Origin: Candidatus Gastranaerophilales bacterium
Lineage (GTDB): Bacteria > Cyanobacteriota > Vampirovibrionia > Gastranaerophilales > Gastranaerophilaceae
Assembly (NCBI GenBank): GCA_944322895.1
Contig: CALUQL010000009.1
Location: 1 to 44,317 of the forward strand
Direction of reading: 5' to 3'
DNA length: 44,317 nt
Both the position numbers and the translations under genes were made by a program. Below are positions 10,835 to 44,317 of this stretch, in pieces. The first letter of the stretch is position 1; every line of letters starts with the position of its first letter. The notes under the pieces are model-generated. The model was not told the origin of the DNA, ran no database searches, and saw nothing but the letters and a program-made list of their open reading frames with translations.

Positions 10835-10882
10835 AAGCATTTAATATTATATAAATTTTTAAAAAGTTGAAGGAAAATATTT

Positions 10883-12586: not shown

Positions 12587-12589
12587 TTT

Positions 12590-14543: not shown

Positions 14544-14552
14544 ATTTATTCC

Positions 14553-15593
14553 TTATAATAATCCGCATTCTATATATAAATCGTTGTTTCTGAATTTTTC
14601 AATATTGATATTTTTTTCCCAATCAACAATATATACAATACTTTTATATTCAATTGGTGCAAATCTATTATTAAATTTCTTTGTTGAACCATATACAAAA
14701 AAATCATAATCTATAAAATGAGAGATTTGTTTTATAAATTCTCTAAGTACGTTTTCATTCTTATATAAAACAAATGATAATGTTTGATATTTTATTATTT
14801 CATTTTCTTTAGGAAATTTTGGATACCCAAAAAACTTTAATAAGGGAGTAACCAAAGTTTTTAATATCTTAAACCTTTTAGAATAATGTTTTATAATTAA
14901 TTGTTTATAATCTGTTTGTTCCCATAAAGTTCCTGTTGCTAGTATATTTTTATTTTCATCTTCTAATATATAAAAATTTTGTAATTCAGGTATATTTTTA
15001 GGAAAAAATATTTTTGATTTTGATTCTTCAAGGATAAATTTTTCTAGTTTTTGAAAATCTTGTTTCTCTACTTTTTTACACTTGTATTTTGACTTAAACT
15101 TAATATTTTTGCCAAATATATTAACTGTATAATCAGATAATTTTTTATATTCAGGCATTGATTTACGTTTTTTTGTCAGCATTTTTTGTGCATATATATT
15201 ATCATTTAATATTGTAGTAAATGTGTATTCAGCTTTATTTTCTTTAATAAAGTTACCAAGAATATTATATGCTTCAATAATATTTAAAGAAGCATCTTTA
15301 TCAATTCTTAGTCCGCCTAAATATGCAATGTTACAAGCTTTGTTGTTTATATTCATTTTATAGATTGTACAAATCCCAATACCTTTGATTTGTTGTGTTT
15401 CCGTATCACGTCCTATAACAATTGCATTTTTATAAGAATCTTTATTTATAGATAAAACTGCATTTGGACGTCTTGAATATATAAGCTGAATATCCCCATC
15501 AAATGATGTTTTTTCCAGAAGTTTGGAAATTTCTTCTCCATCTTTTTCTTGGGCAAATTCATATTTATATTTTTTATTTTGATATTGTGTCAT
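14553..15593 (-). CDS. GNAT-family acetyltransferase-like protein
   Basis: I prefer the ATG at 15593 (346 residues), ten bases after an AGGA; a GTG at 15602 is the alternative. The N-terminal half looks like a GNAT fold: an early FAQEKDGEEISKLL helix, GIGICTIYKM strand and AYLGGLRI, the usual strand before the acetyl-CoA loop. The C-terminal half (about 190-346) seems to be a second related domain, beginning with a further helix-strand pattern and ending IVDWEKN. The start overlaps the stop of the radical SAM gene upstream by about 20 bases, so the two are translationally coupled. Substrate unknown; it may acylate an intermediate of the cluster. Confidence 0.65.
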   Translation of the reverse strand: MTQYQNKKYKYEFAQEKDGEEISKLLEKTSFDGDIQLIYSRRPNAVLSINKDSYKNAIVIGRDTETQQIKGIGICTIYKMNINNKACNIAYLGGLRIDKDASLNIIEAYNILGNFIKENKAEYTFTTILNDNIYAQKMLTKKRKSMPEYKKLSDYTVNIFGKNIKFKSKYKCKKVEKQDFQKLEKFILEESKSKIFFPKNIPELQNFYILEDENKNILATGTLWEQTDYKQLIIKHYSKRFKILKTLVTPLLKFFGYPKFPKENEIIKYQTLSFVLYKNENVLREFIKQISHFIDYDFFVYGSTKKFNNRFAPIEYKSIVYIVDWEKNINIEKFRNNDLYIECGLL

Positions 15594-16911: not shown

Positions 16912-16915
16912 AGCT

Positions 16916-19671: not shown

Positions 19672-20365
19672 AAATTCGTTTTCCTTTTTTATTTAAGTTA
19701 TCAAGACTGAGTTCTGTTATACAGACAAGTTCGTTACCTTCATAATATTTAGGATTCTTTTTTATGAAAAATTCAATATTTTTATCTTTTAATTTTTCAT
19801 TAGGAATTTTAGAGTATTCGGATTTTAAATAATCTTGTTCTTTATTCATAACTATAATACCACTTTGTGAATTATATTTATCAGGGTAAAAAGTTTCTCC
19901 GAATTTATCTATTATTTTTTGCTCAAAAACTGGTGTTACTTTATTATATCTTGGATAAAATTCATCGTAAAAGGAACTTAAATATTTATATGTTTTATAT
20001 CCTTTTGAAATTAAAAGCCAATAAAATTTTTCATTAAATCCTTTTTTTAGTTCTATAGCATTTTGAATCCATACTTGCATTAAGTCATTTTTAGACCAAA
20101 AGGATTTATCTATTATTGTATCACCAGAAAATAAAAGTTTGATAGGTATATTGTCAACAGTAATGTCATATAATACCAATGTTGAAAAACCTTTAATTAA
20201 GTTATTTTCTTCATCCTTTAATATTATAACTTGATATTTATTAGATAAATCATACAAAAAGTTTTCTCTTTTTATATTTTCATAATACAAGCTCATTAAT
20301 TGATACATAGTATCAATATCATTTTGAGAAAGCTCATCTATTTTATAAACATTACCTCTCAGCAT
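19661..20365 (-). CDS. GNAT-like protein of the radical SAM cluster
   Basis: The 234-residue protein has weak GNAT features: a first helix with NDIDTMYQLMSLYY, the strand KGFSTLVLYDI, and LFSGDTIIDKSFW, which parallels the beta-4 region before the acetyl-CoA loop in some GNAT enzymes. The loop itself is not clear, so catalytic activity is uncertain. ATG at 20365 follows GAGG by about ten bases. It overlaps its neighbours by 14 bases upstream and 11 bases downstream. Position beside the GH3 ligase suggests a shared acyl substrate. Confidence 0.5.
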   Translation of the reverse strand: MLRGNVYKIDELSQNDIDTMYQLMSLYYENIKRENFLYDLSNKYQVIILKDEENNLIKGFSTLVLYDITVDNIPIKLLFSGDTIIDKSFWSKNDLMQVWIQNAIELKKGFNEKFYWLLISKGYKTYKYLSSFYDEFYPRYNKVTPVFEQKIIDKFGETFYPDKYNSQSGIIVMNKEQDYLKSEYSKIPNEKLKDKNIEFFIKKNPKYYEGNELVCITELSLDNLNKKGKRIFGI

Positions 20366-21734
20366 ATTTCTTGCCCTCTAAATATCTATTTAGACCAAAT
20401 AACATTCCTTGTTTTTTATATACTTCTTTTCTGAATAATGGTGTATATAACCAGTAAGTTATGAACTTTTTAAATGTTGCCATATTGGTTCTTGGCTCAT
20501 ACATTCTGTATAAAAGTGAAGAAGGCTTGTTGAATTCTTTTCTACAGTAAAAACCTACTTGTGTTAATTCATCAGGAGTCATATTTTTGGGAATAAATGC
20601 CGCATTATTAAATCTGTAATCATCAGATAACCACCATTTACCATTATATAATAATCTGTTTTCTTCCTTTAATTGTTTATATAGTTGTGTATTTGGATAT
20701 GGCATTAAAATATTATAGGCTGCAAAAGTGAATTTATTTTGCAGTGCGAATTCGCAAGTAGCTTTGATTGATTCAATGGTATCAGTATCATGACCTATTG
20801 TAAATGCAGCCCAAGTTTGAAGTCCCCAATATCTTAATCTTTCCACTTCCCATTTATACTTGTTGAATCCGTGTAATTTATTAACTTTTTTTCCCATATA
20901 ATCAAGACTTGCTTCATTTATAGATTCAAAACCTATTATAAAACCCATACCGCCTGATTTTACTATTAATTCCATTAATTCATCATCATAAAGCATATCT
21001 ATGCTACCTTGACTAACCCAATTTATTTTTAATGGAATTAAAGCCTTTAATAATTCTTTTACTTTTGGTTTATTTGCTGTGAAATTGTCATCTACAAAGA
21101 ATAAAAATTTTTTATCTTGCATTTCTATTTCTTTTATTACGTCTGAAATGTTGCGGCAATAATGTTTTTGATTAAAATATTGGCTTACTGCACAATAGTT
21201 ACAATTATATATGCAGCCTCTTGAAAATTGTATTAAAGATAAAGGAAGATATCCTTTGTTCTTAAATAATTCACGTCTTGGGAAAATTCCTTTTTGAGGT
21301 GGTGTTGTTATTTGTCCATAGTATATCCTTTGTAAATTGCTCTTTTTGTAATCTTCAATTAGTGTATCTATTATTTCTTCTGCATCTCCCAATATTATAC
21401 AATCACAATGTTCTAAGACTTCTTCAGGTATTAATTTAGCATGCATTCCTCCCATGATAACTGTTGTATTCCTTTTCTTGAATTCAGCTGCTATTTCATA
21501 TGCTCTTCTGGCTGTATAAGTTTCAACAGTAATCATTGCTATATTAAAATTCTCATCATATTTGATTTTTTCCATTCTGTCATCAAACATTTTTATTTCA
21601 ATATCGTTGGGGATAAGTCCTCCAAGTACACCAAGTTGTAAAGGTTCCATTCTTCCTTCATCTACATATAAAGAATGAAGTTTTGTTCCTATTGTTGGTT
21701 TTATTAATGCAATTTTTATATCCTTATTTTCCAC
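20352..21734 (-). CDS. B12-binding-type radical SAM enzyme (3 of 4)
   Basis: The 460-residue protein has a cobalamin-type domain with VIMGGMHAKLIPEE near 92-105, then the cluster motif at Cys174, Cys178 and Cys181 preceded by LIQFSRG. The C-terminal signature KWWLSDDYRF and MTPDEL match the paralogues at 15574 and 21724. The start is a GTG at 21734, inside the last codons of the upstream gene (11-base overlap). Among the three similar enzymes it shares the FSRGC sequence with 21724 and the DDRMEK and TVETYTARRAY segments with 15574. Confidence 0.88.
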   Translation of the reverse strand: MENKDIKIALIKPTIGTKLHSLYVDEGRMEPLQLGVLGGLIPNDIEIKMFDDRMEKIKYDENFNIAMITVETYTARRAYEIAAEFKKRNTTVIMGGMHAKLIPEEVLEHCDCIILGDAEEIIDTLIEDYKKSNLQRIYYGQITTPPQKGIFPRRELFKNKGYLPLSLIQFSRGCIYNCNYCAVSQYFNQKHYCRNISDVIKEIEMQDKKFLFFVDDNFTANKPKVKELLKALIPLKINWVSQGSIDMLYDDELMELIVKSGGMGFIIGFESINEASLDYMGKKVNKLHGFNKYKWEVERLRYWGLQTWAAFTIGHDTDTIESIKATCEFALQNKFTFAAYNILMPYPNTQLYKQLKEENRLLYNGKWWLSDDYRFNNAAFIPKNMTPDELTQVGFYCRKEFNKPSSLLYRMYEPRTNMATFKKFITYWLYTPLFRKEVYKKQGMLFGLNRYLEGKKYAER

Positions 21735-23019
21735 CTAATTTTTTTCCTTGTTTTATTTTTATTTCTGATTTTGAAATAAGATTAGCTAATAAAAAAATCT
21801 TTATATTGCAAATATTACTCCAGTTTAATAATCGGTAGAATATATTTATATAGGAATTGAATTTATACCTTGCCTTTTTACAACTTTCCATTAAATCGGT
21901 AGGTGACATATTTTTAGGAATTAACATTCCGTCACCATATGAATAATTATTGTCTAGCCACCATTTTTTATATGTTAACTTATTTTTTTCTTTTAAGTTT
22001 TTATATAATTTTGTTCCAGGCATTGGCATTAACGGATTGAAATTTGCAATAGCAAATTTATTTTTTAATGCAAAATCCATTAATTCTATTGCAGTTTCTT
22101 TTGTATCAGTATCATAACCTATTAAAAATGTTCCATATATCATAATATGTGCATTATAGATATTTCTTATAATCTGTTCATAGTTATTGTATTTTATATT
22201 GGGAACTTTTCCCATTTGTCGTAGATTTTCAATATTTAATGATTCAAACCCTATTAATACAAGAATGCATCCGCTTTTTCTCATAAGTTTTAACAGTTCA
22301 ATATTCTTAGCTGTATCTATGCTAATTTGACAAGCCCACTTTTTCTTTAAGGGTATTAAACTTTTGAATAATTTTATTGCTTCTTCTTCATTTGAAAATA
22401 GATTATCATCAATAAAAAATATAAATTTTTCTTTTATTTTTTTTATTTCTTCTAAAATAATTTCTATAGGCTTTGTTCTTATTGAATTTTTGAAAAAAGC
22501 ATGAACAGAACAGAATTCACAATTAAATTTACATCCTCTTGAAAATTGAACAAGTCCTATTTTATTATATTTTTTTCCTTTAAATACAGAATAATCATAT
22601 TTAATTGCAGCTAAATCGGTTAATGTTTTAGATTCATATATTTTCTTTAGAGAATTATTTTCTAAATCAGAAATTACTTTATTCCATATATTTTCAATTT
22701 CTCCTATTATAATTGAATCACAGTATTCAAGAGCTTCATCAGGTTCGGCACTTATATGAAAGCCACCCATAATAACTTTTTTACCTTGGAGTTTGTATTT
22801 TTCTGCCAAAAGATATGCTCTTTTTGCCGAAAAAGTTTCTACTGTCATTGCGATTATGTCAGCATCTATATATGTTGGTAATTCTTCAATGTGTTCATCA
22901 AAAAATGATATATCTATATTTTTAGGTGTTATTGCTTTAACTATTGCAAAAACAAGAGGATACATTGTATCTTTTGATTTAATACCAAACATGCTTGGTC
23001 TTATAAATGCTATTTTCAA
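21724..23019 (-). CDS. B12-binding-type radical SAM enzyme (4 of 4)
   Basis: The 431-residue protein has a cobalamin-type domain with VIMGGFHISAEPDEA near 83-97 and the cluster motif at Cys163, Cys167 and Cys170. It shares KWWLDNNYSYG and MSPTDL with two other members. The start is a TTG at 23019 whose last bases form the TGA stop of the membrane-protein gene (TTGA). A GGAGG ribosome site lies about eight bases upstream, which makes this unusual start convincing. Confidence 0.88.
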   Translation of the reverse strand: MKIAFIRPSMFGIKSKDTMYPLVFAIVKAITPKNIDISFFDEHIEELPTYIDADIIAMTVETFSAKRAYLLAEKYKLQGKKVIMGGFHISAEPDEALEYCDSIIIGEIENIWNKVISDLENNSLKKIYESKTLTDLAAIKYDYSVFKGKKYNKIGLVQFSRGCKFNCEFCSVHAFFKNSIRTKPIEIILEEIKKIKEKFIFFIDDNLFSNEEEAIKLFKSLIPLKKKWACQISIDTAKNIELLKLMRKSGCILVLIGFESLNIENLRQMGKVPNIKYNNYEQIIRNIYNAHIMIYGTFLIGYDTDTKETAIELMDFALKNKFAIANFNPLMPMPGTKLYKNLKEKNKLTYKKWWLDNNYSYGDGMLIPKNMSPTDLMESCKKARYKFNSYINIFYRLLNWSNICNIKIFLLANLISKSEIKIKQGKKLGGK

Positions 23020-23684
23020 TGTTTTTCCTCCAGTGGAATATATTTACCTATTTCAAATATTCCATATTTTATTTTTGATGAAAATGCATATAGGATAGGA
23101 GGAATTGTTAATGAAGCTATGTGGAAATAGATTAAGAAAATATTTAATAGATTGTTTGTTGATATCGAATATTCAAGGTATTTTATATATAACGAATATA
23201 TGAATCCGAATGCATAAAAATACACAGGAGCATAATCAAATACTATTTCATGGGCAGATTTTTTTTCATAAGCAGATTTATTGTTTATTATAATAAATCC
23301 GCATTTAACGGCAAAAATGTCATAAATCCAGTTCCAAAAAGCAATAAAAGCTCCGCAAATAGTTGCAAAAATTAATGAATTAATTATTCCATTATAATTA
23401 GGTGATATTTTATAGAACATAAAGCCAAATAAACTAGTAACAGAACCAAGAACAAAACCATGATAAATTCTGAATTTCCCAATCATAAAACGGGTATTAA
23501 ATTCCCATAATCTTGTAACATTAGTTCCAATAGCCGGTATGATATAAGCAGTTAGTATTGGCAAACTTAAGAATAAAAATGCAAATTTTATATTAGAAAA
23601 TTCTTTATACCAAATAAACAATGTTAAAGGGAATATAACTATAAAAGCAATATATTGATAAATATTAAAGAAGTTTCTATTCAA
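23016..23684 (-). CDS. multi-pass membrane protein, first gene of the radical SAM operon
   Basis: The 222-residue protein is almost entirely hydrophobic, with about six membrane helices. The segment from about 52 to 90 (IGTNVTRLWEF, then GKFRIYHGFVLG) is faintly like the GK-HG loop of CarS/CDP-alcohol cytidylyltransferase-like membrane enzymes, a comparison I hold weakly. If correct it would point to a lipid product. The start is a TTG at 23684 with no strong ribosome site. It ends in TGA overlapping the next start. It may be a lipid enzyme or an exporter for the cluster product. Confidence 0.65.
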   Translation of the reverse strand: MNRNFFNIYQYIAFIVIFPLTLFIWYKEFSNIKFAFLFLSLPILTAYIIPAIGTNVTRLWEFNTRFMIGKFRIYHGFVLGSVTSLFGFMFYKISPNYNGIINSLIFATICGAFIAFWNWIYDIFAVKCGFIIINNKSAYEKKSAHEIVFDYAPVYFYAFGFIYSLYIKYLEYSISTNNLLNIFLIYFHIASLTIPPILYAFSSKIKYGIFEIGKYIPLEEKH

Positions 23685-33063: not shown

Positions 33064-33378
33064 TTAGTTATAAGAAAAATATCTGTCAAAATCTACATCG
33101 TCAAAGTTGCATAAGAGTCTGTAAACATCATCATCTTCATCCATTTTTTGGAATTTATATTCATCAAATTTCCATAACTTAGGATTTATTCCGTATACTC
33201 TTATTATTTCTTTATCTAATAAAATTTTTAATTTCTTTTTTACAACATCAAGAGGCATATCAAGTGATTTAGCAAGTTCAACAGCAGAAATTCCACCTTC
33301 TCTTGAACACTTTTCAGGTGTAAGGAACATTAATTCCAAGCCTACTTTCTTTAAATCACTGTCTTCTTGTGTTACCAT
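33064..33378 (-). CDS. winged-helix DNA-binding protein
   Basis: The 104 residues contain a winged-helix domain (about 28-75: ISAVELAKSLDMPLDVVKKK, then LLDKEIIRVYG as the wing). An acidic C-terminus (DEDDDVYRLL, DDVDFDRYF) follows. It lacks a ligand domain, so it is a simple regulator or a subunit of a DNA-binding complex. The start has only a weak CGGAAA upstream. It ends four bases from tsaD. The 127 bases between its start and the glycosyltransferase operon hold the likely promoter of that operon. Confidence 0.7.
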   Translation of the reverse strand: MVTQEDSDLKKVGLELMFLTPEKCSREGGISAVELAKSLDMPLDVVKKKLKILLDKEIIRVYGINPKLWKFDEYKFQKMDEDDDVYRLLCNFDDVDFDRYFSYN

Positions 33379-33505: not shown

Positions 33506-35989
33506 ATGCAAGAATATAATATTTGTTACAGTTTAGACTCTGCATATGTTGAACAGCTTGCAGTTTCTATTGCTTCAATTTTAAAAAATGCTGATGTTAA
33601 TGAAAATATCAACTTTTATATTCTTGATGGCGGATTAACAAAAAAAGATAAAAAAGAAATTGAGTCTTTAAAAAACATTAAAAATTTTAATATTGAATAT
33701 TTATCTGTGAATATCAATGACTTTTCTGATTATCCTTTATTGAAAAAAGATAATATTGATTACAAAGACTATCATGTAACTTTACCTACTTATTTTAGAT
33801 TTAAGCTTCCTACTTTATTAAATTCATTAAGCAAAGTTTTGTATTTGGATTGTGATGTAATTATAAATAATTCTTTAAAAGGAATTTTTGATGCAAATAT
33901 AGATAATTATGCTGTTGCAATGGTTCTTGATGCTGACAGTACAAAAGAATCAAAAAGACTAGGGTTGAAAAAATATTTTAATGCCGGTGTAATGCTTTTA
34001 AATCTTGATTTTTGGCGAAAGAATAATTTAGAGTTAAGTCTTCTTGATTATGCAAAAAAGAACAAATCCAAAATTTTATGGCAAGATCAAGATATTGTTA
34101 ATAGTGTTTTATCTGAAAATATAAAAGAATTATCAAATATTTGGAATTATCAATATTTACAATATGAAAATGTTGATTCAAGTAAACTTGATAAGGCTGT
34201 AATTTTTCATCTTGCAGGTCGCTTTAAACCTTGGTTAATTCCTTTTGAGCATTTTATCTATGACTTGTATTATTATTATTTGGATTTTACTCCTTTTAGA
34301 AATAAAATTATTGAATATAAACAAAAATCTTCCGGCAAATTTCTAAAAGATGATATTGGTGGTAGTACAACAAATATAAGACTATTTGCAAATGATGAAG
34401 ATATACAAAAAATATATTCTGAAATATCTGCTGCTTATGAATTTATTAAGGGACAAGTTGTTTTATTAAATGCTAACTCTGATAATAAAACTTCGAAAGT
34501 CTATGAGGAAATTTCAAAGAACTATGAATATACAAAAGAAAGTGATAAAAGACTTCAAGAACAATTGAATAATAATGTCGATGAAAAAATAGGTAAAGTT
34601 TATGAAGAAATTTCCAAGAATTATGAATATACAAAACAAAGTGATGAAAAACTTCAAGAACAGTTGAATAACGAAACATACACTAAAATAGGTAAAGTCT
34701 ATGAAGAAATTTCAAAGAACTATGATTACACAAAAGAAAGTGATGAAAGACTTCAAGAGAAGCTAAATAATAATGTCGATGAAAAAATCGGTAAGGTCTA
34801 CGAAGAAATTTCAAAAAATTATGATTACACAAAAGAAAATGATGAAAGACTTCAAGAACAGCTAAATAATAATGTTGTTGAAAAAGTTAGTAAAGTCTAT
34901 GAAGAAATTTCAAAGAACTATGATTATACAAAAGAAAATGATAAATTAATTAAATTTCAGTTGAATAATGAAACAGACACTAAAATAGGTAAAGTCTATG
35001 AAGAAATTTCAAGAAATTATGATTATACAAATGAAAATGATGAAAAACTTAAAGAACAGCTGAATAATAATGTCGATGAGAAAATCAGTAAAGTTTATGA
35101 AGAAATTTCAAAAAATTATAATAATGTAAATGATTTCATTTCAAAAGTTCAAGAAAATTTTTCTGATAAATTGAATACAATTACGTCTGAAAATAATGAA
35201 AGAATTAATATATTCGAGATTGCTGTTTCAGATAAGATAAATGAATCTGAAACAAATATTAGAAATGATATAAAAAATATCGAGAAAAATATATATGAAG
35301 AAATAACCAAAAATAACAGTTATACAGAATATTTAGTGCAAACGGTTGAAGAAAAACAGAACCAAAAAAGGTCAGAAACTTTAAATGAAATTAACTCTTC
35401 TATATATAATTTAAAAATAGATACAGAAAATAAAATAAATTCAGAAATAAATTTTTTAAAGATAAAAACAGAGGAAAATATAAAGTCTCTAGAAGAAAAA
35501 TTTTCTATAGAAACTAAAGTATTAGATGAAAAACACACTAAAGAAACTAATCATAAAGTTAGTGAAATATATTCGTATACAAATGAAAACTTTTCTAAAC
35601 TTTATAAAGAGATTAAGGATTCCCATCTAAAAATTGAGAATATTTTAAATTCAAATACCATTGAATTAAAAATTAGTAATGAAAATCTGTTATCAGAAAT
35701 AAATTATGTGAAAGAAAATGTTGATAGAAAGATTAGTACTGAGACTTTAAAATCAATTATGTTAGATATGGAAAATAAACTAACGCAACAAAAAGAGGAA
35801 TATGATAAAAATGTTATCAACTTGCAATCAGACTTTGATGAAAAAATAAATCAACAAAGAATAAAATATGAAAATAAGCTAATAAATATGGAAAATCAAA
35901 TAGTTCAAATGCGAATTGAAATGGATGAAAAAAGAAAGAATTTATTCCAAAAATTAATTCAAAAAATAAGAAAAACAAAAAAGAGATAA
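33506..35989 (+). CDS. GT8 glycosyltransferase fused to a repeat-built coiled coil
   Basis: The 827-residue protein has a GT8 domain (about 1-270) that adds hexoses from UDP-sugars, as in LgtC and WaaI. Motifs are NICYSLDSAY, Asp115-Cys-Asp117 in YLDCDV, FNAGVMLLNL near 158, WQDQD near 200 and FHLAGRFKPW. From about 280 to the end it is a long helical rod. Six complete and one partial 33-residue units begin at residue 331, each opening KVYEEISKNYxYT, followed by irregular coiled coil and a basic tail. There is no signal peptide or membrane segment. TACAAT at 33474 is a possible -10. It leads a seven-gene operon. The 33-residue period equals three 11-residue (hendecad) turns. Confidence 0.9.
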   Translation: MQEYNICYSLDSAYVEQLAVSIASILKNADVNENINFYILDGGLTKKDKKEIESLKNIKNFNIEYLSVNINDFSDYPLLKKDNIDYKDYHVTLPTYFRFKLPTLLNSLSKVLYLDCDVIINNSLKGIFDANIDNYAVAMVLDADSTKESKRLGLKKYFNAGVMLLNLDFWRKNNLELSLLDYAKKNKSKILWQDQDIVNSVLSENIKELSNIWNYQYLQYENVDSSKLDKAVIFHLAGRFKPWLIPFEHFIYDLYYYYLDFTPFRNKIIEYKQKSSGKFLKDDIGGSTTNIRLFANDEDIQKIYSEISAAYEFIKGQVVLLNANSDNKTSKVYEEISKNYEYTKESDKRLQEQLNNNVDEKIGKVYEEISKNYEYTKQSDEKLQEQLNNETYTKIGKVYEEISKNYDYTKESDERLQEKLNNNVDEKIGKVYEEISKNYDYTKENDERLQEQLNNNVVEKVSKVYEEISKNYDYTKENDKLIKFQLNNETDTKIGKVYEEISRNYDYTNENDEKLKEQLNNNVDEKISKVYEEISKNYNNVNDFISKVQENFSDKLNTITSENNERINIFEIAVSDKINESETNIRNDIKNIEKNIYEEITKNNSYTEYLVQTVEEKQNQKRSETLNEINSSIYNLKIDTENKINSEINFLKIKTEENIKSLEEKFSIETKVLDEKHTKETNHKVSEIYSYTNENFSKLYKEIKDSHLKIENILNSNTIELKISNENLLSEINYVKENVDRKISTETLKSIMLDMENKLTQQKEEYDKNVINLQSDFDEKINQQRIKYENKLINMENQIVQMRIEMDEKRKNLFQKLIQKIRKTKKR
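34496..35188 (+). repeat. 99-base tandem repeat, six full copies and one partial
   Basis: Copies start at 34496, 34595, 34694, 34793, 34892, 34991 and 35090, exactly 99 bases apart without a single indel. Each begins with an AAAGTCTATGAAGAAAT-like segment. The copies differ at the third codon position and at the unit end, so they are not recent, but they are similar enough for slippage or recombination. The last copy loses similarity after its first 40 bases. Confidence 0.93.
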
Positions 35990-35992
35990 AAT

Positions 35993-37198
35993 ATGAAATC
36001 GCCAAAAGTATCTTTAATTTTAATATATGATAAGCAAGATAATTTGAAGGAATGTTTAAGTAGCCTTATAAATCAATCATTTAAGGATATTGAGATTATA
36101 TGTATAAATAATGCTTCAAAAGATGAAGCAGAAAATATAGTAAAAGAAGTAGCTTTAAAAGAAGAACGAATTAAATTGATCTGTTTGCCAATTTCTGAGG
36201 ATAATATATCAGCTAAAAAAATAGCACTTGGTGTAGCTGGTGGTGATTTTGTTTGTTTTGTTAATACTAATGAAATATATGATACTGATTTTGTCAAAAA
36301 TTTATATTTAAAATCTATAGAAGAACAAGTAATAAATACGAAGGAAAATCATTTTTATAGAAGAAATTTTCTTGAAAATGACGAAGAAATAGCTCAACTT
36401 ATAAGTGATAAAGTCGATCAAGAAATTCAGAAATATAAAGGCGTTATCAATAATCAAAATGATTTGATAAAAAATGAATTCAATAAATTCTATCAGAATA
36501 ATCTAGAAACTATAAAAAATAATTCTTACGAGGTTTTGTGTCGTTTTAATCAGCTTGAAAAAGTATTTTATGATAAAGACTACCAGAATCAGATAAAAAA
36601 TAATGAATTGTTTAATGAAGTAAGTTCCAAAAATGAAGATTTGACTAAACAAATTTATGAAGATATTGCCAAGGTTTATGATTATATCAATTCAGAAATA
36701 AATAAAAAAGGTATGGAAGTAAACCACGTATATGATGAGATAAGTAAAAATTATCAATATACAGAAAAATTAATTTCTGATAAAAGTAATGAAATATCAT
36801 CTATTATTAATAGTGGAAAAGATGATATTTGGAATAAAATATCAGAACTAGAAAAAGAAATAATAGTAAGATATGTTAATCTAAAGCGATTATTAGATAT
36901 TCAAATAGATGAGATTGATTCTAAACTAAAAGCATTGAATAATGGTAATTTGTCTGAATATAGAGTAATAGATTTGGAAAAAATAGTTTCTGAAAATTTA
37001 GATAAAATGTATGAACACATGAATAGTATGTCTTCTGTTTTTTATGAAGAACTTACCAAAATTTATAAAGAGCTGAACGAAAAATTATGTCAAAAAAGAG
37101 AAGAAGACAAATATTTCTTTGAACAAAAAATAACTGAATTAAGAACTGAATTTGATGAAAAGTTAAAAAATCTAAAGAAAGAATTACAGGATAATTAA
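35993..37198 (+). CDS. degenerate GT2 domain with coiled coil, likely catalytically dead
   Basis: The 401-residue protein starts like a GT2 enzyme (KVSLILIYDKQDNLKECL and IEIICINNASKDEA) and continues to the strand that should carry the DxD metal site. There VNTNE (residues 90-94) replaces the VDSDD of its neighbours. After about residue 110 the acceptor half is missing and a coiled coil runs to the end. It contains IYEDIAKVYDYI, VYDEISKNYQYTEKL and FYEELTKIYKEL, relatives of the repeat in the GT8 protein. It is probably a scaffold or regulatory partner. The gene begins four bases after the GT8 stop. Confidence 0.75.
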   Translation: MKSPKVSLILIYDKQDNLKECLSSLINQSFKDIEIICINNASKDEAENIVKEVALKEERIKLICLPISEDNISAKKIALGVAGGDFVCFVNTNEIYDTDFVKNLYLKSIEEQVINTKENHFYRRNFLENDEEIAQLISDKVDQEIQKYKGVINNQNDLIKNEFNKFYQNNLETIKNNSYEVLCRFNQLEKVFYDKDYQNQIKNNELFNEVSSKNEDLTKQIYEDIAKVYDYINSEINKKGMEVNHVYDEISKNYQYTEKLISDKSNEISSIINSGKDDIWNKISELEKEIIVRYVNLKRLLDIQIDEIDSKLKALNNGNLSEYRVIDLEKIVSENLDKMYEHMNSMSSVFYEELTKIYKELNEKLCQKREEDKYFFEQKITELRTEFDEKLKNLKKELQDN

Positions 37199-37200
37199 TA

Positions 37201-39354
37201 ATGCCAAAAGTATCAGTAATAATACCATTTAATAATGTTGAAAACTATATTGAAGAGTGTCTTAATGGTGTGTTATCTCAAACACTTGAGGACATAGAAG
37301 TTATTTTAATAAATGATGCATCTACTGATAGAACATTAGAAATTGTTGAAGGGTATTTACAAAAAGATTCCAGAATAAAACTTATAAATATAACAGAGCG
37401 AAAAGGTCAGGGTTTTGCAAGAAATAGAGGTATAGAAATAGCAACTGGTGAATATATCGGATTTGTTGATTCTGATGACTTCATTGAGCCGGATATGTTT
37501 GCGTGTTTATATAATAGTGCAAAAGCTAATGATACTGATATATCTATGTGCCAAGTTAGAGAATATGATGATATAAATGAAAACTATATAACATCTGATT
37601 ATTATTCTTTATCTTGTTTATCTTCTTTTCAAAATGATGTTTTTAGTGCAGAAGACACAAAAGACTGTATTTTAGATATAAATGTTGCCCTATGGAACAA
37701 AATTTATAAAAGAGAATATTTAAACAATATAGGTGAAAAATTTCCAGAAGGTTTTATTTATGAAGATTTACCTTTTTTCTTTGGTACATATCTTAGCGCA
37801 AAAAGAATTCAAATAGTATGGAAAAATCTATACAGTTATAGAATCAATCGTAAAAATTCTACAATGCAGCAGTTTAATAATAAAATATTGGATCGTTTGC
37901 CTATGGTTTCTCTTACATATGAAAAATTAAAAAAAGTTCCATATTTAAGTGATTTAAAACAAAGAATTCAAGCTTGGATTATAAATGATTTATTTCACAG
38001 ATATTCACTTTTGAAAGAAAACTACCATAAAGAATTTTTCTTTCAAATGAAAAAAATTTTTCAGAGTTTGGAAATAGAAAATATTGAAGATGATTATTGG
38101 AAAAGAGTTTATCATTTTCAGGGATATCTTCTTGTTATGAATAATACTTTTGAAGATTTTAATAACAAAGTTTTTACTGAGTACCTTGATATACATAAAG
38201 TAGAAGATAGACTTCGTTCTGAAATTATTGGCATAGAAGAAATTGATACTCGCTTTAATTCTGTGTATCAAGAAATAACAAAAAATTATAAATATACTGA
38301 AGATTTATTCTCAGAATTAAAAGACAAAAATGTTGAATTTTCTAATGAAATAAAAAAAGTTTTTGAAGATATAGAATTAAATAGAACAGAATTATATTCA
38401 AATATAGAAAAAAATAATATAAACATCGAGCAAAAAACTGACTCTAAAATTTCTGATGTATATGAAGAAATAACAAAAAATTATAAATATACAGAGGAAT
38501 TGTTTTCAAAGCTAAATGAGGAAAAGTCTGAAATTTATAATAAAATAGAAGACGAAAAATCAGGTTTAGTTAAAGATACTGATTTAAAAATTTCTCAAAT
38601 TTATGATGAAATAACAAAAAGTTATAAGTATACAGAGGAATTGTTTTCAAAGCTAAATGAAGAGACGTCTGAAATTTATAATAAGATAGAAGAAGAAAAA
38701 TCAGGTTTAGTCAAAGATACTGATATAAAAATTTCTCAAATTTATGATGAAATAACAAGAAATTATAAGTATACAGAAGAACTAGTACAAAGAAATTTTG
38801 AGAAACTTGATTCCAAAATAGATTTGGATTTGAAAAATAGTTATAATCATTTAAATGAATGTCTCGAAGAAAAGGCTAAATATTTATACAATGATATAAA
38901 AGATTTATCGTTTGTACTTCAAAATAATTTTGTAGAGTTAAATAAAGAGCAAGACAAAATATTAGAGAAAAATAAACAAATAGTTGCAAATATTGAGGTT
39001 TATAAACAAAAGAATGAAGAAAAAATTTCTGATTTAAGAAAAGAATATAAAGAAATTATTTCTTCAAGAATTCAAAATATTTCAAATAATCTTGAACAAT
39101 TTGATATTGAAATAAAAAATCATATTGATACTATTCAAAAGCAACTTGAAACAGAAAAACTGCAAAATATTAGAAATATAGAAGAACTAAAATCTCAATT
39201 CAGTATAGAGTTGGAAGTTCAACAGAAAAAACATGATGAAGAAATTGAAACTCTAAAAAAACAAATGCAAGAAGTGGAAGTTAAACTTAGAGAAGAAATG
39301 AAATCTCCAATTCAAAAATTAATAGAAAAATATAAAACAAAATCGGAGAAATAA
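37201..39354 (+). CDS. GT2 glycosyltransferase with repeat-built coiled coil
   Basis: The 717-residue protein has a full GT2 domain (about 1-330): VSVIIPFNNVENYI, INDASTDRT, FARNRG, Asp90-Ser-Asp-Asp93 and ALWNKIYKREYL. These are followed by GFIYEDLPFFFGTYL and YRINRKNSTMQ, an acceptor-side signature shared with the gene at 41755. From about 340 on it is coiled coil, with four YxEITKxYKYTEEL modules. Three of them are in a 47-residue tandem repeat (see the repeat at 38455). The C-terminus is highly charged. Two bases separate it from the gene before. Confidence 0.9.
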   Translation: MPKVSVIIPFNNVENYIEECLNGVLSQTLEDIEVILINDASTDRTLEIVEGYLQKDSRIKLINITERKGQGFARNRGIEIATGEYIGFVDSDDFIEPDMFACLYNSAKANDTDISMCQVREYDDINENYITSDYYSLSCLSSFQNDVFSAEDTKDCILDINVALWNKIYKREYLNNIGEKFPEGFIYEDLPFFFGTYLSAKRIQIVWKNLYSYRINRKNSTMQQFNNKILDRLPMVSLTYEKLKKVPYLSDLKQRIQAWIINDLFHRYSLLKENYHKEFFFQMKKIFQSLEIENIEDDYWKRVYHFQGYLLVMNNTFEDFNNKVFTEYLDIHKVEDRLRSEIIGIEEIDTRFNSVYQEITKNYKYTEDLFSELKDKNVEFSNEIKKVFEDIELNRTELYSNIEKNNINIEQKTDSKISDVYEEITKNYKYTEELFSKLNEEKSEIYNKIEDEKSGLVKDTDLKISQIYDEITKSYKYTEELFSKLNEETSEIYNKIEEEKSGLVKDTDIKISQIYDEITRNYKYTEELVQRNFEKLDSKIDLDLKNSYNHLNECLEEKAKYLYNDIKDLSFVLQNNFVELNKEQDKILEKNKQIVANIEVYKQKNEEKISDLRKEYKEIISSRIQNISNNLEQFDIEIKNHIDTIQKQLETEKLQNIRNIEELKSQFSIELEVQQKKHDEEIETLKKQMQEVEVKLREEMKSPIQKLIEKYKTKSEK
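38455..38790 (+). repeat. 141-base tandem repeat, two full copies and a partial third
   Basis: Units begin at 38455, 38596 and 38737, spaced 141 bases. They encode a 47-residue unit made of the YEEITKNYKYTEELFSKL module plus a second helical piece (EIYNKIEDEKSGLVKDTD). The first two are nearly identical at the DNA level (for example TCAGGTTTAGTTAAAGATAC-like stretches), indicating a recent duplication. Confidence 0.88.
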
Positions 39355-39356
39355 AG

Positions 39357-40550
39357 TTGGCAGAAATTTCTGTAATAGTACCTGTTTATAATGTTGAAAA
39401 ATATCTTGAAAAATGTTTGGATACAATTGTTAATCAGACATTTTCTGATATAGAGATTATATGTGTAAATGATGGTTCAAAAGATAATTCAAGAAAAATT
39501 ATTGAAGAATATAAGCAGAATGATTCTCGAATTAAGATAATAGATAAAGAAAATGGCGGGTTGTCGTCTGCTCGCAATGCAGGACTGAAGGTTGCTACTG
39601 GTAAGTATATAAGTTTTATTGATTCAGATGATTGGGTTGATTTAACTATGTTAGAAAAGTTATATCAAAATATCAAAACTCTTAATACTGATATTTCAAT
39701 TTGCGCGGTTAATCTTTTTGATGAACAGGAACAAAAAATAAAGGAAGCAGGGCCTTATTTTGATCTTAGTTATTTTGACTCATCTTTTGAGGGTAAAGTC
39801 TTTTCTTATAATGATACAAAAGATTTTTTGATGGATGTTTGTGTCATGGCTTGGAATAAGTTATATAGAAAAAGTTTTTTAGATGAATGTAAGGCAGAAT
39901 TTCCTGAGGGTTTAATTTTTGAGGATGGTCCTTTCTTTTTTTCTATATTTTTCAAAACTCAAAGAGTTTCAATAGTTAGGGATTTTTTATATTACTACAG
40001 AATAAATAGAACAGGCTCAATTGTCCAAAAAGGCGGTATAAAGTTCTTGGATATTATAGATGTTGTTAATTTAATGTATTCTTCTTTGGAAAAAAACGAT
40101 ATTTGGGAATCTTTAAAATATGAGTTTTTTCATCGAAAAGCTGATGATATAATTTACAGATATGAATTAATTCCTTTAAAACTGAAGAATAAATTTTCTA
40201 AAAAATTAAAAAAAGAATCAATACTATTGAATGAATCGATATTTGATTTTGCATATATAAATAAAGAATATCCTATAACATATAGAAGTCTTTGTGCAAT
40301 AAAAAATAATACAAGTATTTTAAGTTTTTATTATAGAAAATTTATTATAAGGCTAATGTATAAAATAATGCAGGTTTTGTATACAGAAGAAAATATTTAT
40401 TATTTTAAATTTTGGAATTTTAAATTAAGGTTAAAAAAACGAGCAAATTTGTATGATGTATGGTATGAAAATGATAAAATTTATGTAGTTTTATTTATGA
40501 AAATAAAGTTTAGTTTCAAATTTGAATATTCAAAGTTAGAGCAAAAATAA
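39357..40550 (+). CDS. GT2 glycosyltransferase, EDGPFFF type, copy 1
   Basis: The 397-residue GT2 enzyme has VSVIVPVYNVEKYL-like start (ISVIVPVYN), VNDGSKDNS, SSARNAG and Asp89-Ser-Asp-Asp92. The acceptor half carries GLIFEDGPFFFSIFFKTQ and YYRINRTGSI. No coiled coil is attached. The C-terminal 60 residues include YENDKIYVVLFMKIKFSF, also present in the next gene. The start is a TTG at 39357 with CGGAG nine bases upstream. It is a tandem paralogue of the gene at 40554. Confidence 0.9.
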   Translation: MAEISVIVPVYNVEKYLEKCLDTIVNQTFSDIEIICVNDGSKDNSRKIIEEYKQNDSRIKIIDKENGGLSSARNAGLKVATGKYISFIDSDDWVDLTMLEKLYQNIKTLNTDISICAVNLFDEQEQKIKEAGPYFDLSYFDSSFEGKVFSYNDTKDFLMDVCVMAWNKLYRKSFLDECKAEFPEGLIFEDGPFFFSIFFKTQRVSIVRDFLYYYRINRTGSIVQKGGIKFLDIIDVVNLMYSSLEKNDIWESLKYEFFHRKADDIIYRYELIPLKLKNKFSKKLKKESILLNESIFDFAYINKEYPITYRSLCAIKNNTSILSFYYRKFIIRLMYKIMQVLYTEENIYYFKFWNFKLRLKKRANLYDVWYENDKIYVVLFMKIKFSFKFEYSKLEQK

Positions 40551-40553
40551 AGT

Positions 40554-41762
40554 ATGAAAGAGCCTAAAATATCTGTAATAGTTCCTGTTTATAATGTGGA
40601 GAAATATTTGCCAAAATGTTTGGATAGTATTTTATGTCAAACTTTTTCAAATATAGAGATTATATGTGTAAATGATGGCTCAACCGATAATTCAAGAAGA
40701 ATACTGGAAGAATATAAAAATAAAGACTCACGAATAATTATAGTAGATAAAAAAAATGGCGGATTATCATCAGCACGTAATGCAGGGATGAAAGTAGCAA
40801 AAGGTGAGTTTTTTAGTTTTATTGACTCTGATGACTGGATAGATTCTGCAATGCTTGAAAAGTTATATAAAAATATAACTTCACTTGATACCGATATTTC
40901 AATATGTGCAGTTCATCAGTTTGATGAAACAAATCAAAAAATAGATGATTCAAATCCTTATTATACCTTAGAGTATTTTGATTCAAGCTTTGATAATAGA
41001 GCATTTTCATATAAAGATACAAAACCATTTATAATGGATGTTTGTGTTATGGCATGGAATAAACTATATCGAAGGAGCTTAATTGATGAGTGTCAGGCAG
41101 AGTTTCCCGATGGGTTAATATTCGAAGACGGCCCATTTTTCTTTACTATTTTCTTTAAAACTCAAAAGATTTCTATTGTTAGAGAATTTTTATATTATTA
41201 TCGTGTAAATAGAACTGGCTCAATTATTCAAAAAGCAGGTAAAAAGTTCTTACATATTATTGATGTTGCAGAAATTATGTATAACAAGATAAAAGATTTA
41301 CCTGATTTTGATGATATTAAATATATATTTTTCCGAAAAAAGGTTGAAGACTTTATATATCGTTTTGAACATCTTAATCCAAAATATAAATCCGCCTTTG
41401 CTAAAAAAATGAAAAAGGAAAGTTCTCTGGTTAATGAAAATATATTTCCTCCATCTATGGTAAAAGGCAGATTCAAATATAATTATTTTCTTTTTAAAAA
41501 CTTAAAAACAGGCAGTATTTTGTATTATGAATTTCAGAAATATAAAATGAAGTCTATGTATAAATTAATGGAAATACTCTATAAAGAAGATGGTGTATAT
41601 TATTTAAAATACAAGAGCTATATTGCCAAATTTAAGAAATGTCCTCAAATATTTGATATTTATTACTCAAATGATAGAATCTATGTACGGATATTTAAAA
41701 AAATAAAGTTCGATTTTACATTTAAGTTTTCAGAGTTGGAGAAGTTAAACGAAGATGACTAA
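40554..41762 (+). CDS. GT2 glycosyltransferase, EDGPFFF type, copy 2
   Basis: The 402-residue GT2 enzyme is very similar along its whole length to the gene before it: ISVIVPVYNVEKYL, VNDGSTDNS, SSARNAG, Asp91-Ser-Asp-Asp94, GLIFEDGPFFFTIFF and YYRVNRTGSI. The conserved tail YSNDRIYVRIFKKIKFDF is also present. The pair arose by tandem duplication and most likely transfers similar sugars to different acceptors. The stop overlaps the next start (ATGACTAA). Confidence 0.9.
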   Translation: MKEPKISVIVPVYNVEKYLPKCLDSILCQTFSNIEIICVNDGSTDNSRRILEEYKNKDSRIIIVDKKNGGLSSARNAGMKVAKGEFFSFIDSDDWIDSAMLEKLYKNITSLDTDISICAVHQFDETNQKIDDSNPYYTLEYFDSSFDNRAFSYKDTKPFIMDVCVMAWNKLYRRSLIDECQAEFPDGLIFEDGPFFFTIFFKTQKISIVREFLYYYRVNRTGSIIQKAGKKFLHIIDVAEIMYNKIKDLPDFDDIKYIFFRKKVEDFIYRFEHLNPKYKSAFAKKMKKESSLVNENIFPPSMVKGRFKYNYFLFKNLKTGSILYYEFQKYKMKSMYKLMEILYKEDGVYYLKYKSYIAKFKKCPQIFDIYYSNDRIYVRIFKKIKFDFTFKFSELEKLNEDD

Positions 41763-43221
41763 AGTATCAATAATAGTACCATTTCATAATGTAGAAAAAT
41801 ATATTTCCAAGTGTTTGACTTCATTAATATACCAGTCATTAGAAGATATAGAAATTATTTGTGTTAATGATGCATCTACTGATGATTCAAAAAATATAGT
41901 GCAACATTATTTAGAAAATGATAAAAGAATAATTTTATTAAATATAGATAATGTTTCAGGCCAATCATATGCGAGAAATTTAGGAATGGAAGTTGCATCT
42001 GGTGAATACATAGGTTTTGTTGACTCTGATGATTGGGTTGAACTTGATATGTTTGAAAAAATGTATAATAAAGCAAAGAGTGTTGATTCAGATATAACAA
42101 TGTGTCAATCACAATTATATGATGATAAAGAGCAAACATTTTATACAAATGATTATTATAGTTTAAAATCTTTAGAAAAATATGAGGATAAAGTATTTAC
42201 ACCGGAAGAAACAAAAGATGAAATTTTAAATATTAATGTTGTACTTTGGAACAAGATATATAAACGAGAGTTTTTGCAAAATACTTTGGTTAAATTTCAA
42301 AATGGATATATTTATGAAGATTTACCTTTCTTTTTTGAAATATATTTAAAAGCTCAAAGGATAAATATTTTATGGGAAGCACCATATTATTACAGGCAAA
42401 ACAGGCAATTTTCAACAATGCAGAATTCCGATAAAAAGGTTTATGACAGAATTCCAATGGTTGAAAGAACATATAATGTACTAAAACAAACACCATTTTT
42501 TGAAGAGAAAAAAACAGAGATAATAAGCTGGATAATAGATGATATTTTTCACCGCTATACACTTTTAGAAGATAGATATTATGAAGATTATTTTGGAAAA
42601 ATGAAAGAGTTTTTTCAAAGAATTGAACTTACAAAAGAAGCTGAGCAAGAGCTTGCTAAAAGTTATTGCTATGATGAGTTTAAGAATATATTAGAGCGTT
42701 CATATTACGGATTTTGGAATTTTTTAGTAGAAAAATATAAAACTTCAAATAAAAGAATAAAAGCAGCAGAACATAAATGTAATTTAGATATTATAGCTAT
42801 TAAAGAATATCTGGAACAATATAAGAAAGAAGCAAATGAAGAAAAAAACAAAATAGAAGAATGGTGGAAAAACCATTGTGATGAAGAAGTAAAAAAGAAA
42901 ATAGATGAACAATTCCATTATATGGAAGCAAAAAAATCTGAAGAATTAAAAGCTGCATATGAAGAATGGCATTCAAAACTTGTAAAACAAGAGTATGAAT
43001 TAAAAGCATGGCAAGCTGAATCAGTAAAGCAAGTCAGTGAAAAATTAAAAGCTGATTATGAATGGAAATTGGAAGAACAAAAACAACACTATCAAGAAGC
43101 TTTAATAAAACAAAAAGAATATTATGAAAATAATTATTTATTGGTTAAAATAATATTAAAGTTTTATAAAAAAGTAGAACAGTTGAAAAATAAAATAAAG
43201 AAAATAATAAAGAAAAATTAA
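41755..43221 (+). CDS. GT2 glycosyltransferase, EDLPFFF type, with Trp-rich coiled coil
   Basis: The 488-residue protein has a GT2 domain (about 1-330) with VSIIVPFHNVEKYI, VNDASTDDS, YARNLG, Asp90-Ser-Asp-Asp93, GYIYEDLPFFFEIYL and YYRQNRQFSTMQ. The last two features pair it with the gene at 37201. The C-terminus (about 345-488) is a coiled coil unlike the others, rich in Trp and Glu (EEWWKNHCDEE, EEWHSKLVKQEYELKAWQ), ending in a basic stretch. The start overlaps the previous gene by eight bases. Confidence 0.9.
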   Translation: MTKVSIIVPFHNVEKYISKCLTSLIYQSLEDIEIICVNDASTDDSKNIVQHYLENDKRIILLNIDNVSGQSYARNLGMEVASGEYIGFVDSDDWVELDMFEKMYNKAKSVDSDITMCQSQLYDDKEQTFYTNDYYSLKSLEKYEDKVFTPEETKDEILNINVVLWNKIYKREFLQNTLVKFQNGYIYEDLPFFFEIYLKAQRINILWEAPYYYRQNRQFSTMQNSDKKVYDRIPMVERTYNVLKQTPFFEEKKTEIISWIIDDIFHRYTLLEDRYYEDYFGKMKEFFQRIELTKEAEQELAKSYCYDEFKNILERSYYGFWNFLVEKYKTSNKRIKAAEHKCNLDIIAIKEYLEQYKKEANEEKNKIEEWWKNHCDEEVKKKIDEQFHYMEAKKSEELKAAYEEWHSKLVKQEYELKAWQAESVKQVSEKLKADYEWKLEEQKQHYQEALIKQKEYYENNYLLVKIILKFYKKVEQLKNKIKKIIKKN

Positions 43222-43229
43222 GGTTCATA

Positions 43230-44317
43230 ATGACAGATATTCAGGAACAATTTGTAAAACTTGAAAAAGAATTTCAACAAGAAATTGCAGTTCAGAAAAG
43301 ATTTTATGAAAGTGAAATAGAATTTCTAAAATCTAAATTTGAATATGAAAAAGAAAAATTAAAAATTGAATATGAAAATAAACTAATTGAAGAAAAAAAA
43401 GCAATTGAGGCATTTTATAATGTAAAATCAGTTGAAGATTTGGAAAAACAAAAAGATTATTATCTGTCAGAACTTGAATCTCAAAAAGATTGGTATGAAA
43501 AAGAAATTTTAAGACGTCAAAAAGAAACTGAAATCTGGCATGTTAATAATTTAGAAAAACAAATATCTGACTTAAAAAAAGGCTATGAAGAAATGCTGAA
43601 AGCTCAGCAAGATAGGTTTAATGTTCAAGAAGAAGCTTTGAGTTTTCATATTCTTGAACAGAAAAAATATTATGAAGAACAATTAAAACCGTATAAAAAG
43701 TTAATTAAGTTTGGAAATAAAATTCAAAAAAAATTACATTTGAAGACAAAAAGCAAAGAAGAAAATAAAAAAGAAGATATAGTTATAACAGATATAATAA
43801 ATGAATGCGAAACAAACAATGAAAAGCCAAAAGTATCCGTAATTCTGCCTGTTTATAATGTAGGCAAATATTTGAGGTCGTCTCTTGATAGTTTGATGAA
43901 TCAGACATTAAAAGATATTGAAATTATATGTGTAGATGACGGTTCTACAGATGATAGTTATGATATTTTAGAAGAATATAAACAAAAAGATGCAAGAATA
44001 AAAGTTATTCATAAGGAAAATAAAGGTACAGGTGCGGCAAGGAATGACGGATTAAGACTTGCTACAGGTGAATGTATAGGTTTTGTTGATCCTGATGATT
44101 GGGTTAAACCTAATATGTTTGAAAGATTATATGAGCTAATAAAAGAGAAAAATCTTGATATAGCAATGTGTATGCCTGATGGTTATGATGAAAAAAATGG
44201 AATAAATACACCGTTCCCGTATTTTGTAGATGCAAATTTCGAAAATATTATAGATGACAGAGTCTTTAATTGGCGAGATTTATCACCGTTTAGTTATCCA
44301 ATGTGCGTTTGGAATAA
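43230..44317 (+). CDS. coiled coil followed by GT2 glycosyltransferase, incomplete at window end
   Basis: An ATG at 43230, with AGG seven bases upstream and eight bases after the previous stop, opens 362 codons that remain open at the window edge. Here the order is reversed: residues 1 to about 190 are coiled coil (segments such as EKQKDYYLSELESQKDWYEKE), then a linker. The GT2 domain starts at about 199 with KPKVSVILPVYNVGKYL, VDDGSTDDS, GAARNDG and VDPDDW (Pro in place of Ser in the usual VDSDD). The acceptor half is cut off at CVWNK. The coiled coil is closest in style to the Trp-rich tail of the gene before it. Confidence 0.85.
   Translation, partial: MTDIQEQFVKLEKEFQQEIAVQKRFYESEIEFLKSKFEYEKEKLKIEYENKLIEEKKAIEAFYNVKSVEDLEKQKDYYLSELESQKDWYEKEILRRQKETEIWHVNNLEKQISDLKKGYEEMLKAQQDRFNVQEEALSFHILEQKKYYEEQLKPYKKLIKFGNKIQKKLHLKTKSKEENKKEDIVITDIINECETNNEKPKVSVILPVYNVGKYLRSSLDSLMNQTLKDIEIICVDDGSTDDSYDILEEYKQKDARIKVIHKENKGTGAARNDGLRLATGECIGFVDPDDWVKPNMFERLYELIKEKNLDIAMCMPDGYDEKNGINTPFPYFVDANFENIIDDRVFNWRDLSPFSYPMCVWN

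Follow-up and report, generated by a model that had tools for sequence, protein, structure and literature searches.

At the end of the window, by which we mean the whole stretch of DNA analysed, seven open reading frames (ORFs) follow one another on the plus strand from position 33506, the seventh running off the contig end. The window is an entire contig of 44317 bases and comes from a Candidatus Gastranaerophilales genome of 2.15 Mb (93% complete). The distances between the genes are, in order, 3, 2, 2 and 3 bases, an 8-base overlap of genes 5 and 6, and 8 bases; these ORF coordinates agree with a first-pass annotation that described seven consecutive plus-strand genes with tiny gaps or an overlap, with the qualification that the last one is truncated by the contig. 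Gene 1 matches the Pfam model of glycosyltransferase family 8 (GT8; PF01501, 4.9e-45) and genes 2 to 7 that of glycosyltransferase family 2 (GT2; PF00535); in an NCBIfam scan of genes 1 to 4, 6 and 7 no protein reaches a curated cut-off. The first three genes continue beyond their catalytic parts into helical rods that carry copies of one 33-residue module. The features are as follows, with positions in the proteins given in amino acids (aa).

33506..35989, plus strand: gene 1, GT8 catalytic domain (aa 5-244), then a helical rod of ~530 aa with 8 modules and a conserved C-terminal tail A
34475..35365, plus strand: rod of gene 1, eight 33-aa copies of the module, (V/I)Y(E/D)EI(S/T)KNYxYT, spaced mostly at 33 aa, aa 332-596
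35819..35974, plus strand: tail A of gene 1, aa 772-823, a C-terminal segment found on gene 3 instead in one clade
35993..37198, plus strand: gene 2, half a GT2 domain of the GT-A fold (aa 1-~128) without DxD, then a helical rod with one module
36704..36802, plus strand: module copy of gene 2
37201..39354, plus strand: gene 3, full GT2 (aa 1-~330), helical rod with 4 modules, tail B
38239..38814, plus strand: rod of gene 3, four module copies, the last three at a 47-aa period
39175..39351, plus strand: tail B of gene 3, aa 659-717
39357..40550, plus strand: gene 4, GT2, no rod, TTG start
40554..41762, plus strand: gene 5, GT2, no rod, paralogue of gene 4
41755..43221, plus strand: gene 6, GT2 (paralogue of gene 3) with a charged extension of ~170 aa ending in a strongly basic amphipathic tail
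43230..44315, plus strand: gene 7, cut by the contig end, N-terminal charged segment of ~190 aa, then GT2

Catalytic domains and rods

The earlier count of one GT8 and six GT2-type proteins is supported by the family matches, but does not hold for gene 2 as a full GT2, which is truncated and lacks the DxD motif. Its Pfam match spans profile positions 4-105 of 168, and D-x-D was found in none of the 28 loci listed (0/28), the corresponding position reading FVNTNE in the window and FVNTNE, FINSNE, FLTPDK, FIDPEQ and similar across the 28 loci, 11 of which were aligned. The AlphaFold model (mean predicted local distance difference test score, pLDDT, 70.6; predicted template modelling score, pTM, 0.35) alternates strands and helices, as in half a GT-A domain, as far as residue ~128 and is helical from there to the end. 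Foldseek matches this model to GT-A enzymes, among them 5hea (107 columns, root-mean-square deviation 1.5), and the sequence itself aligns with residues 10-111 of 5hea (GalT1). GalT1 and other GT-A enzymes of family GT2 have the catalytic fold seen in genes 2 to 7, but the solved relatives are longer, whereas gene 2 (316-410 aa in total in the 28 loci listed) ends after the nucleotide-binding half. Having neither the DxD-type motif nor the complete GT-A domain of a catalytically active GT2, the gene 2 product is a probable pseudoenzyme or scaffold. The other six proteins, one GT8 and five GT2, have full domains and DxD-type motifs, the completeness of gene 7 being judged from its relatives. 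For gene 1 the nearest NCBIfam model is NF011718, a lipopolysaccharide (LPS) 3-alpha-galactosyltransferase of family GT8, which scores 81.7 bits over residues 3-243, far below its curated cut-off of 461 bits and with the rod lying outside the match.

The rods of genes 1 to 3 are hendecad-like (11/3) helices and not classical heptads, because their hydrophobic periodicity peaks at 3.67, 3.61 and 3.63, respectively, and the power at 3.50 stays below 1 in all three. At the peaks the power amounts to 27.5, 13.6 and 33.0, against 99% shuffle levels near 7 that are slightly low since the shuffles were scored at every third period only. A coiled coil and a helix lying on a membrane surface may be alike compatible with a periodicity of 3.61-3.67. 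The stripe of the module has bulky side chains, aromatic or branched (Y, I, V, L). Among the spacings between modules, 161 of the 168 that lie between 15 and 59 residues fit 11a+7b (12 of the 16 distinct values, compared with 58% of integers), which gives weak support to a helical register unbroken along the rod.

Distribution of the module and transfer of a rod

The strict motif occurs seven times (5/1/1 in genes 1/2/3) and, with close variants, accounts for 13 copies (8/1/4), in the alignment of which (13 rows, 33 aa) Y10, E12 and I13 are invariant. A profile built from these copies finds 13 matches in the whole 2.15-Mb genome, every one inside the operon. We ran the same profile on three overlapping samples of genomes, covering relatives, order and phylum. 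In the sample of relatives the module is present in 36 of 147 genomes, namely 35 of the 41 genomes of the same genus and G052, a member of another genus of the same family; in the order sample it is present in 30 of 383 (29 of the same genus and again G052), and in the phylum sample in 10 of 386 (nine same-genus genomes and a weak match in G264, E 7.9e-4), with no further strong match outside the genus among these 386 genomes. One of the same-genus genomes without a match, G038, has genes 4 to 7 and its rod genes would lie past the contig end, which makes the missing match uninformative. Among the matches listed, the contigs with the module are those seen with the operon, the exceptions being the weak match in G264 and contig C109 of G030, which carries the helix-turn-helix (HTH)-like gene of the operon's left border. 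With these two exceptions, the matches listed from all three samples lie on operon contigs of one genus and of G052; in the sampled genomes the module is thus lineage-specific and not a generic coiled coil. The earlier suggestion to search the module as a profile and list the attached domains is answered in the same sense, generic occurrence with unrelated enzymes not being seen among the matches listed; the claim that the same module sits on proteins with unrelated catalytic domains is supported in so far as genes 1, 2 and 3, which differ in their catalytic parts, carry it in many same-genus genomes.

The operon occurs widely in this one genus of Candidatus Gastranaerophilales, gut relatives of the cyanobacteria. 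All seven genes are contiguous in 13 loci, nine with the first three genes ordered 1-2-3 and four with the order 1-3-2, many of the remaining loci being truncated by contig ends. A gene 5 profile retrieves 77 loci, of which 16 have 70-84% identity; these 16 are from gut genomes named Candidatus Gastranaerophilales apart from one in 'Cyanobacteria bacterium SIG29' and one in 'Bacterium isolate RGIG1973'. Complete proteins measure 414-1315 aa for gene 1 (n=19) and 489-1154 aa for gene 3 (n=24), and some of these lengths may be wrong since many contigs break inside rods. Sizes are nearly constant in gene 4 (396-411 aa, n=24), gene 5 (400-413 aa, n=25), gene 6 (465-518 aa, n=24) and gene 7 (487-540 aa, n=23).

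Has a rod passed from one enzyme to another? The loci with the order 1-3-2 bear on this. Their gene 1 is short and without the conserved tail A, which stands at the end of gene 3 instead. Among the 18 genomes with both protein ends visible, tail A is present at no less than 40 bits on exactly one of the GT8 and gene 3 proteins in 18/18 (12 on the GT8, 6 on gene 3), a count that represents one inherited event and was obtained with a tail profile built from both groups. BLAST comparisons of seven swapped with ten standard genomes (run without composition correction or low-complexity filter, with one alignment for each pair) show that the swapped gene 3 rods match GT8 rods better than gene 3 rods in 7/7 (386 versus 218 bits, for example), with the match extending to the last residue in 7/7. 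The eight swapped genomes that could be placed in a tree of operon proteins form a single clade (support 1.000), the sister of which consists of G001 and G031 (0.769); G001 is also the top GT8-rod match of the swapped gene 3 rods each time. Rooting on G052 and G058 makes the order 1-3-2 derived. Because the swapped genomes form one clade with full support, the GT8 rod passed, with its tail, a single time to the GT2 of gene 3, both enzymes being kept and the GT8 retaining a shorter rod.

The proposal that the rod has been moved between enzymes as a unit thus stands for one event, attested by tail A, BLAST and the tree, but not as a continuing movement of modules. Modules of gene 1 and gene 3 are no more alike within a genome than between genomes (0.349 in both cases, p 0.49, 21 genomes; of 295 matches, the comparison took those on ORFs of gene 1, 2 or 3, without the 41 matches on partial ORFs and without G052). 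Continuing exchange between genes is not supported by this equality, and the sharing of the module is therefore old. Within one gene, copies from the same genome are 0.514 alike as compared with 0.391 across genomes, and the repeats are therefore renewed inside genes. Tandem DNA repeats occur in the rods, with a unit of 99 bp (33 aa) for gene 1 and one of 141 bp (47 aa) for gene 3, and with high DNA identity between copies.

Relatives outside the genus show the same parts in other combinations. Two operons (L089, which belongs to G058, and L088) open with a rod-only protein of 441 and 498 aa, respectively, without a Pfam domain reaching the cut-off; gene-4-like and gene-3-like GT2s come next. 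The periodicity of the rod-only protein of G058 has a power above that of shuffles (10.9 at 3.77). The last gene of L089 encodes a GT2-helix-GT2 protein of 884 aa, the two ends of which match genes 6 and 7; the contig piece of L088 ends too early to show such a fusion. Rod-only and fused forms typically mark proteins with a joint function, and from them we infer that the proteins act together. The operon of G052 (L162) has four genes, a GT8 with a rod, a GT2 with an end like tail A, gene 4 and gene 7. On the same strand, 114 bases before its GT8, lies a gene for a DegT/DnrJ/EryC1 aminotransferase (L162:8611-9726), which hints at an amino sugar in G052; no DegT-type aminotransferase was found beside the operon in the few other flanks scanned.

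A scan for charged segments, tried as an indicator of coiled coils, proved unspecific, flagging many GT2s of other AT-rich organisms, and is not counted here. It also returned a 901-aa protein of Methanosphaera (L096:4051-6756) in which a charged segment is flanked by two GT2 matches, as in the L089 fusion.

A possible glycan-building assembly and its alternatives

Most of what is said about how bacteria keep the many enzymes of a glycan pathway together is inference, and the known scaffolds are few. Do the rods serve this purpose here? The explanation we favour, at about even odds, is that they join the enzymes of the operon into one cytoplasmic glycan-building complex. Six glycosyltransferases and the half-GT2 would be made together from the operon; the rods of the GT8, the half-GT2 and the GT2 of gene 3, which share the repeat and its non-heptad character, would bundle with each other and set the enzymes side by side, as exchangeable parts of the assembly rather than the private property of one enzyme. 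Basic tails at the rod ends, strongest in genes 6 and 7, would anchor the assembly to the cytoplasmic membrane from the inside, and an acceptor (a lipid-linked sugar, the LPS core or a protein) would there be extended by several sugars. The bundling of unlike rods, the docking, the inactivity of gene 2 and the common product are what we infer; the strongest support for the assembly is the single rod transfer together with the rod-only and fused relatives. More tentatively, we propose a scaffold made from the enzymes' own interchangeable rods, in which a GT8, GT2s and a glycosyltransferase-derived pseudoenzyme would interlock through a lineage-specific hendecad module, and which would have arisen stepwise in one family from an operon with a stand-alone rod protein. 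If this is true, a rod can pass between catalytic domains without loss of the system. The natural rod-swap, rod-only and fusion variants make the scaffold idea directly testable with cloned proteins.

The docking is suggested by the basic tails of genes 1, 3, 6 and 7. Mean net charge per 22 residues is +3.8 to +8.7 in the tails, compared with -0.3 to -1.3 in rod windows. For the terminal 22 residues the means are 4.3, 3.8 and 7.8 in genes 1, 3 and 6 (n=22, 27 and 33), that of gene 1 taking in the swapped GT8s without the tail; in gene 7 the segment ahead of the GT2 reaches 8.7 in a window picked as the most basic and hence biased. Amphipathic moments are raised in genes 6 and 7 only (0.52 and 0.46, against 0.25 and 0.23), and the suggestion of inner-membrane docking is firmer for these two.

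A number of observations weigh against such an assembly. Of the five long coiled coils reported in the first pass, periodic helical rods are recovered for genes 1, 2 and 3 and not for genes 6 and 7, whose periodicity power (5.2 and 6.5) does not exceed that of their own shuffles; likewise the linker of the natural gene 6-7 fusion is without clear coiled-coil periodicity (power 3.6, not above shuffles, as is also the case for the gene 4 control with a power of 3.2). In the AlphaFold model of gene 1 the module region has a pLDDT of about 33-46, so that the rod is readable as a helix only. The tails of genes 1 and 3, though basic, do not surpass rod windows in amphipathicity. Genes 4 and 5 are rodless, and their membership in the complex follows from the operon alone. 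Between genes 1 and 3 there is no significant co-variation of rod length (rho 0.46, p 0.15, n=11), although tight pairing of the rods might lead one to expect it; an apparent co-variation (n=12, p 0.047) had included G008 with a 5'-cut GT8 ORF and was dropped. G027, in which the GT8 ORF is open on the 5' side, was likewise left out when swapped and standard rod lengths were compared, and a Fisher test is not relied on since the swapped genomes are one clade. The operon is apparently split over separate contigs in G021 (L170, L171, L169) and G008 (L172, L174, L173), genes 1 to 3, gene 4 and genes 5 to 7 lying on different contigs next to other sequence and gene 4 not adjoining gene 5 in the sequence available. 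In G037 a gene 4 was not found in the interval from gene 2 to gene 5, nor in G035 a gene 6 in that from gene 5 to gene 7. To these are added the lack of inter-gene module likeness within genomes and the standing of the tail count as one inherited event, both given above.

Another possibility, which we consider unlikely on balance, is that the rods homodimerise or lie flat on the membrane as amphipathic helices, the shared module reflecting common ancestry only. An 11-residue periodicity is also known from lipid-binding helices, and the observed 3.61-3.67 in place of 3.5, the absence of module matching between genes within genomes and the Apolipoprotein matches of genes 2 and 3 and a rod-only relative, all weak and sub-threshold, fit this explanation. 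A stripe of large aromatic and branched residues and a net negative charge, both found in these rods, are less usual for membrane helices, and the transfer of a rod with the tail count kept at one is more readily explained if the rods act in one structure, as the assembly proposes.

The closest known arrangement is that of the O-polysaccharide multiprotein complexes, in which a coiled-coil protein bears the chain terminator and recruits or carries glycosyltransferase modules, and the coiled coil of WbdD terminates in a membrane-associated amphipathic helix (PMC11231755). In the WbdD/WbdA and WbbB-type complexes (E. coli O9a, Klebsiella O3, O4, O7, O12) as described there, glycosyltransferase modules are arranged around an extended coiled coil, as may be the case here, and are distributed over proteins with one or several modules, which associate in a complex (PMC11231755). 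Those complexes, as described, have one coiled-coil protein with a terminator and belong to ABC-exporter pathways, whereas the operon has three rod enzymes with a common repeat, a GT2 without DxD, non-heptad rods and no terminator or exporter family among its seven genes. No methyltransferase or kinase family of a WbdD-type terminator occurs in the seven proteins, a role that the GT8 may fill, and no Wzm/Wzt ABC exporter was found among the seven genes or eight flank proteins scanned. By analogy the system would work like the coiled-coil O-antigen complexes; we do not class it with the WbdD type because the search yielded neither a terminator nor an exporter family and its rods differ in periodicity and number. 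The earlier statement that no described system has this composition holds for the composition itself in the text consulted, but glycosyltransferase complexes organised by coiled coils have been described for O-polysaccharides (PMC11231755).

This likeness raises the question of whether the rod is a molecular ruler as in WbdD, with the GT8 capping chains at the far end of a membrane-anchored rod whose length sets that of the glycan and whose variation among strains is antigenic. Gene 1 has the domain order described for WbdD (PMC11231755), with an N-terminal catalytic domain, a rod and a basic C-terminal tail, the tail of gene 1 being no more amphipathic than its rod, and genes 1 and 3 vary strongly in length as opposed to the nearly constant genes 4 and 5. 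We nevertheless find a ruler improbable: the operon has no methyltransferase, kinase or transporter family, the genome has no Wzt_C (which only some such exporters have), one clade carries the long rod on the GT2 and not on the GT8, many operons hold two different long-rod enzymes, and contigs often break inside rods, so that the lengths themselves may be wrong. Least probable of all is an ordinary outer-glycan locus with free, sequentially acting enzymes and repeat-rich rods that expand and shrink neutrally without any shared role, for which the tandem repeats with their high DNA identity, the strong length variation, the intact and empty site in 4 of 41 same-genus genomes and the genes split or missing in a few genomes would speak, but against which stand the module sequence and tails kept across the genus despite divergence and the retention of gene 2, without DxD, with its long extension (316-410 aa) in the 28 loci listed.

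If the rods do assemble the enzymes, what might be built? The genome has 19 GT2 matches, six of them in the operon, and encodes a Kdo transferase, so that the host probably makes LPS. It also has another, conventional cluster with GT4-like, GT2, GT8 and GT11 families and an epimerase among the 10 ORFs scanned, and without the module. No Wzt_C was found in the 93%-complete genome, exporters without Wzt_C not having been sought, and no initiating transferase of the Bac_transf type. An extension of the LPS core, a lipid-linked oligosaccharide and protein glycosylation all fit as acceptor or product. Glycosylation loci of serine-rich-repeat adhesins comprise a GtfA/GtfB pair, the adhesin substrate and accessory Sec genes; none of these features occurs in the operon, which contains GT8 and GT2 only, or in the eight proteins scanned in its flanks, to which the search in this genome was confined. 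We know of no earlier such system in Gastranaerophilales, and no published account of a rod-bearing glycosyltransferase operon of this kind was found in the literature searched, which left subscription papers mostly outside its scope.

Genomic site and neighbouring genes

The left border of the site is marked by a divergent gene outside the system.

33064..33378, minus strand: HTH-like gene of 104 aa, flanking marker

This gene is strongly conserved and is matched once in each of 102 of the 147 related genomes, both those that have the operon and those that do not, and its protein reaches no curated family above cut-off. It was considered as a dedicated regulator of the operon, a role ruled out by its presence in these 102 genomes regardless of the operon. 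In 25 loci its distance from gene 1 is -14 to 353 bases; in L088 it stands ahead of the rod-only gene, and in G052 and G058 it is on a different contig. On the other side, 22 of 34 loci have, by size and place, a gene of 170-200 aa 3' of gene 7. In one locus a protein of 180 aa (L038:15630-16172) without Pfam or NCBIfam match lies between the operon and ftsZ, and its homologues are also present in operon-free genomes. Four of the five operon-free genomes of the genus (G007, G018, G039 and G040, among 41) have an empty site (L181, L182, L183, L184), in which the HTH-like gene and the homologue of the 180-aa protein adjoin at 126-174 bases and the operon of ~11 kb is absent; in the fifth, G032, the two are not together. 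The empty site may represent a loss or the ancestral state.

Further upstream in the window, a run of genes on the minus strand (13692-23684) includes, among the four scanned, two B12-binding radical SAM proteins, an adenylating enzyme of the GH3 family and an amidohydrolase-like protein. Three genes on the plus strand (9743-13723) encode a transglutaminase-like protein, a WG-repeat protein and one without a Pfam match.

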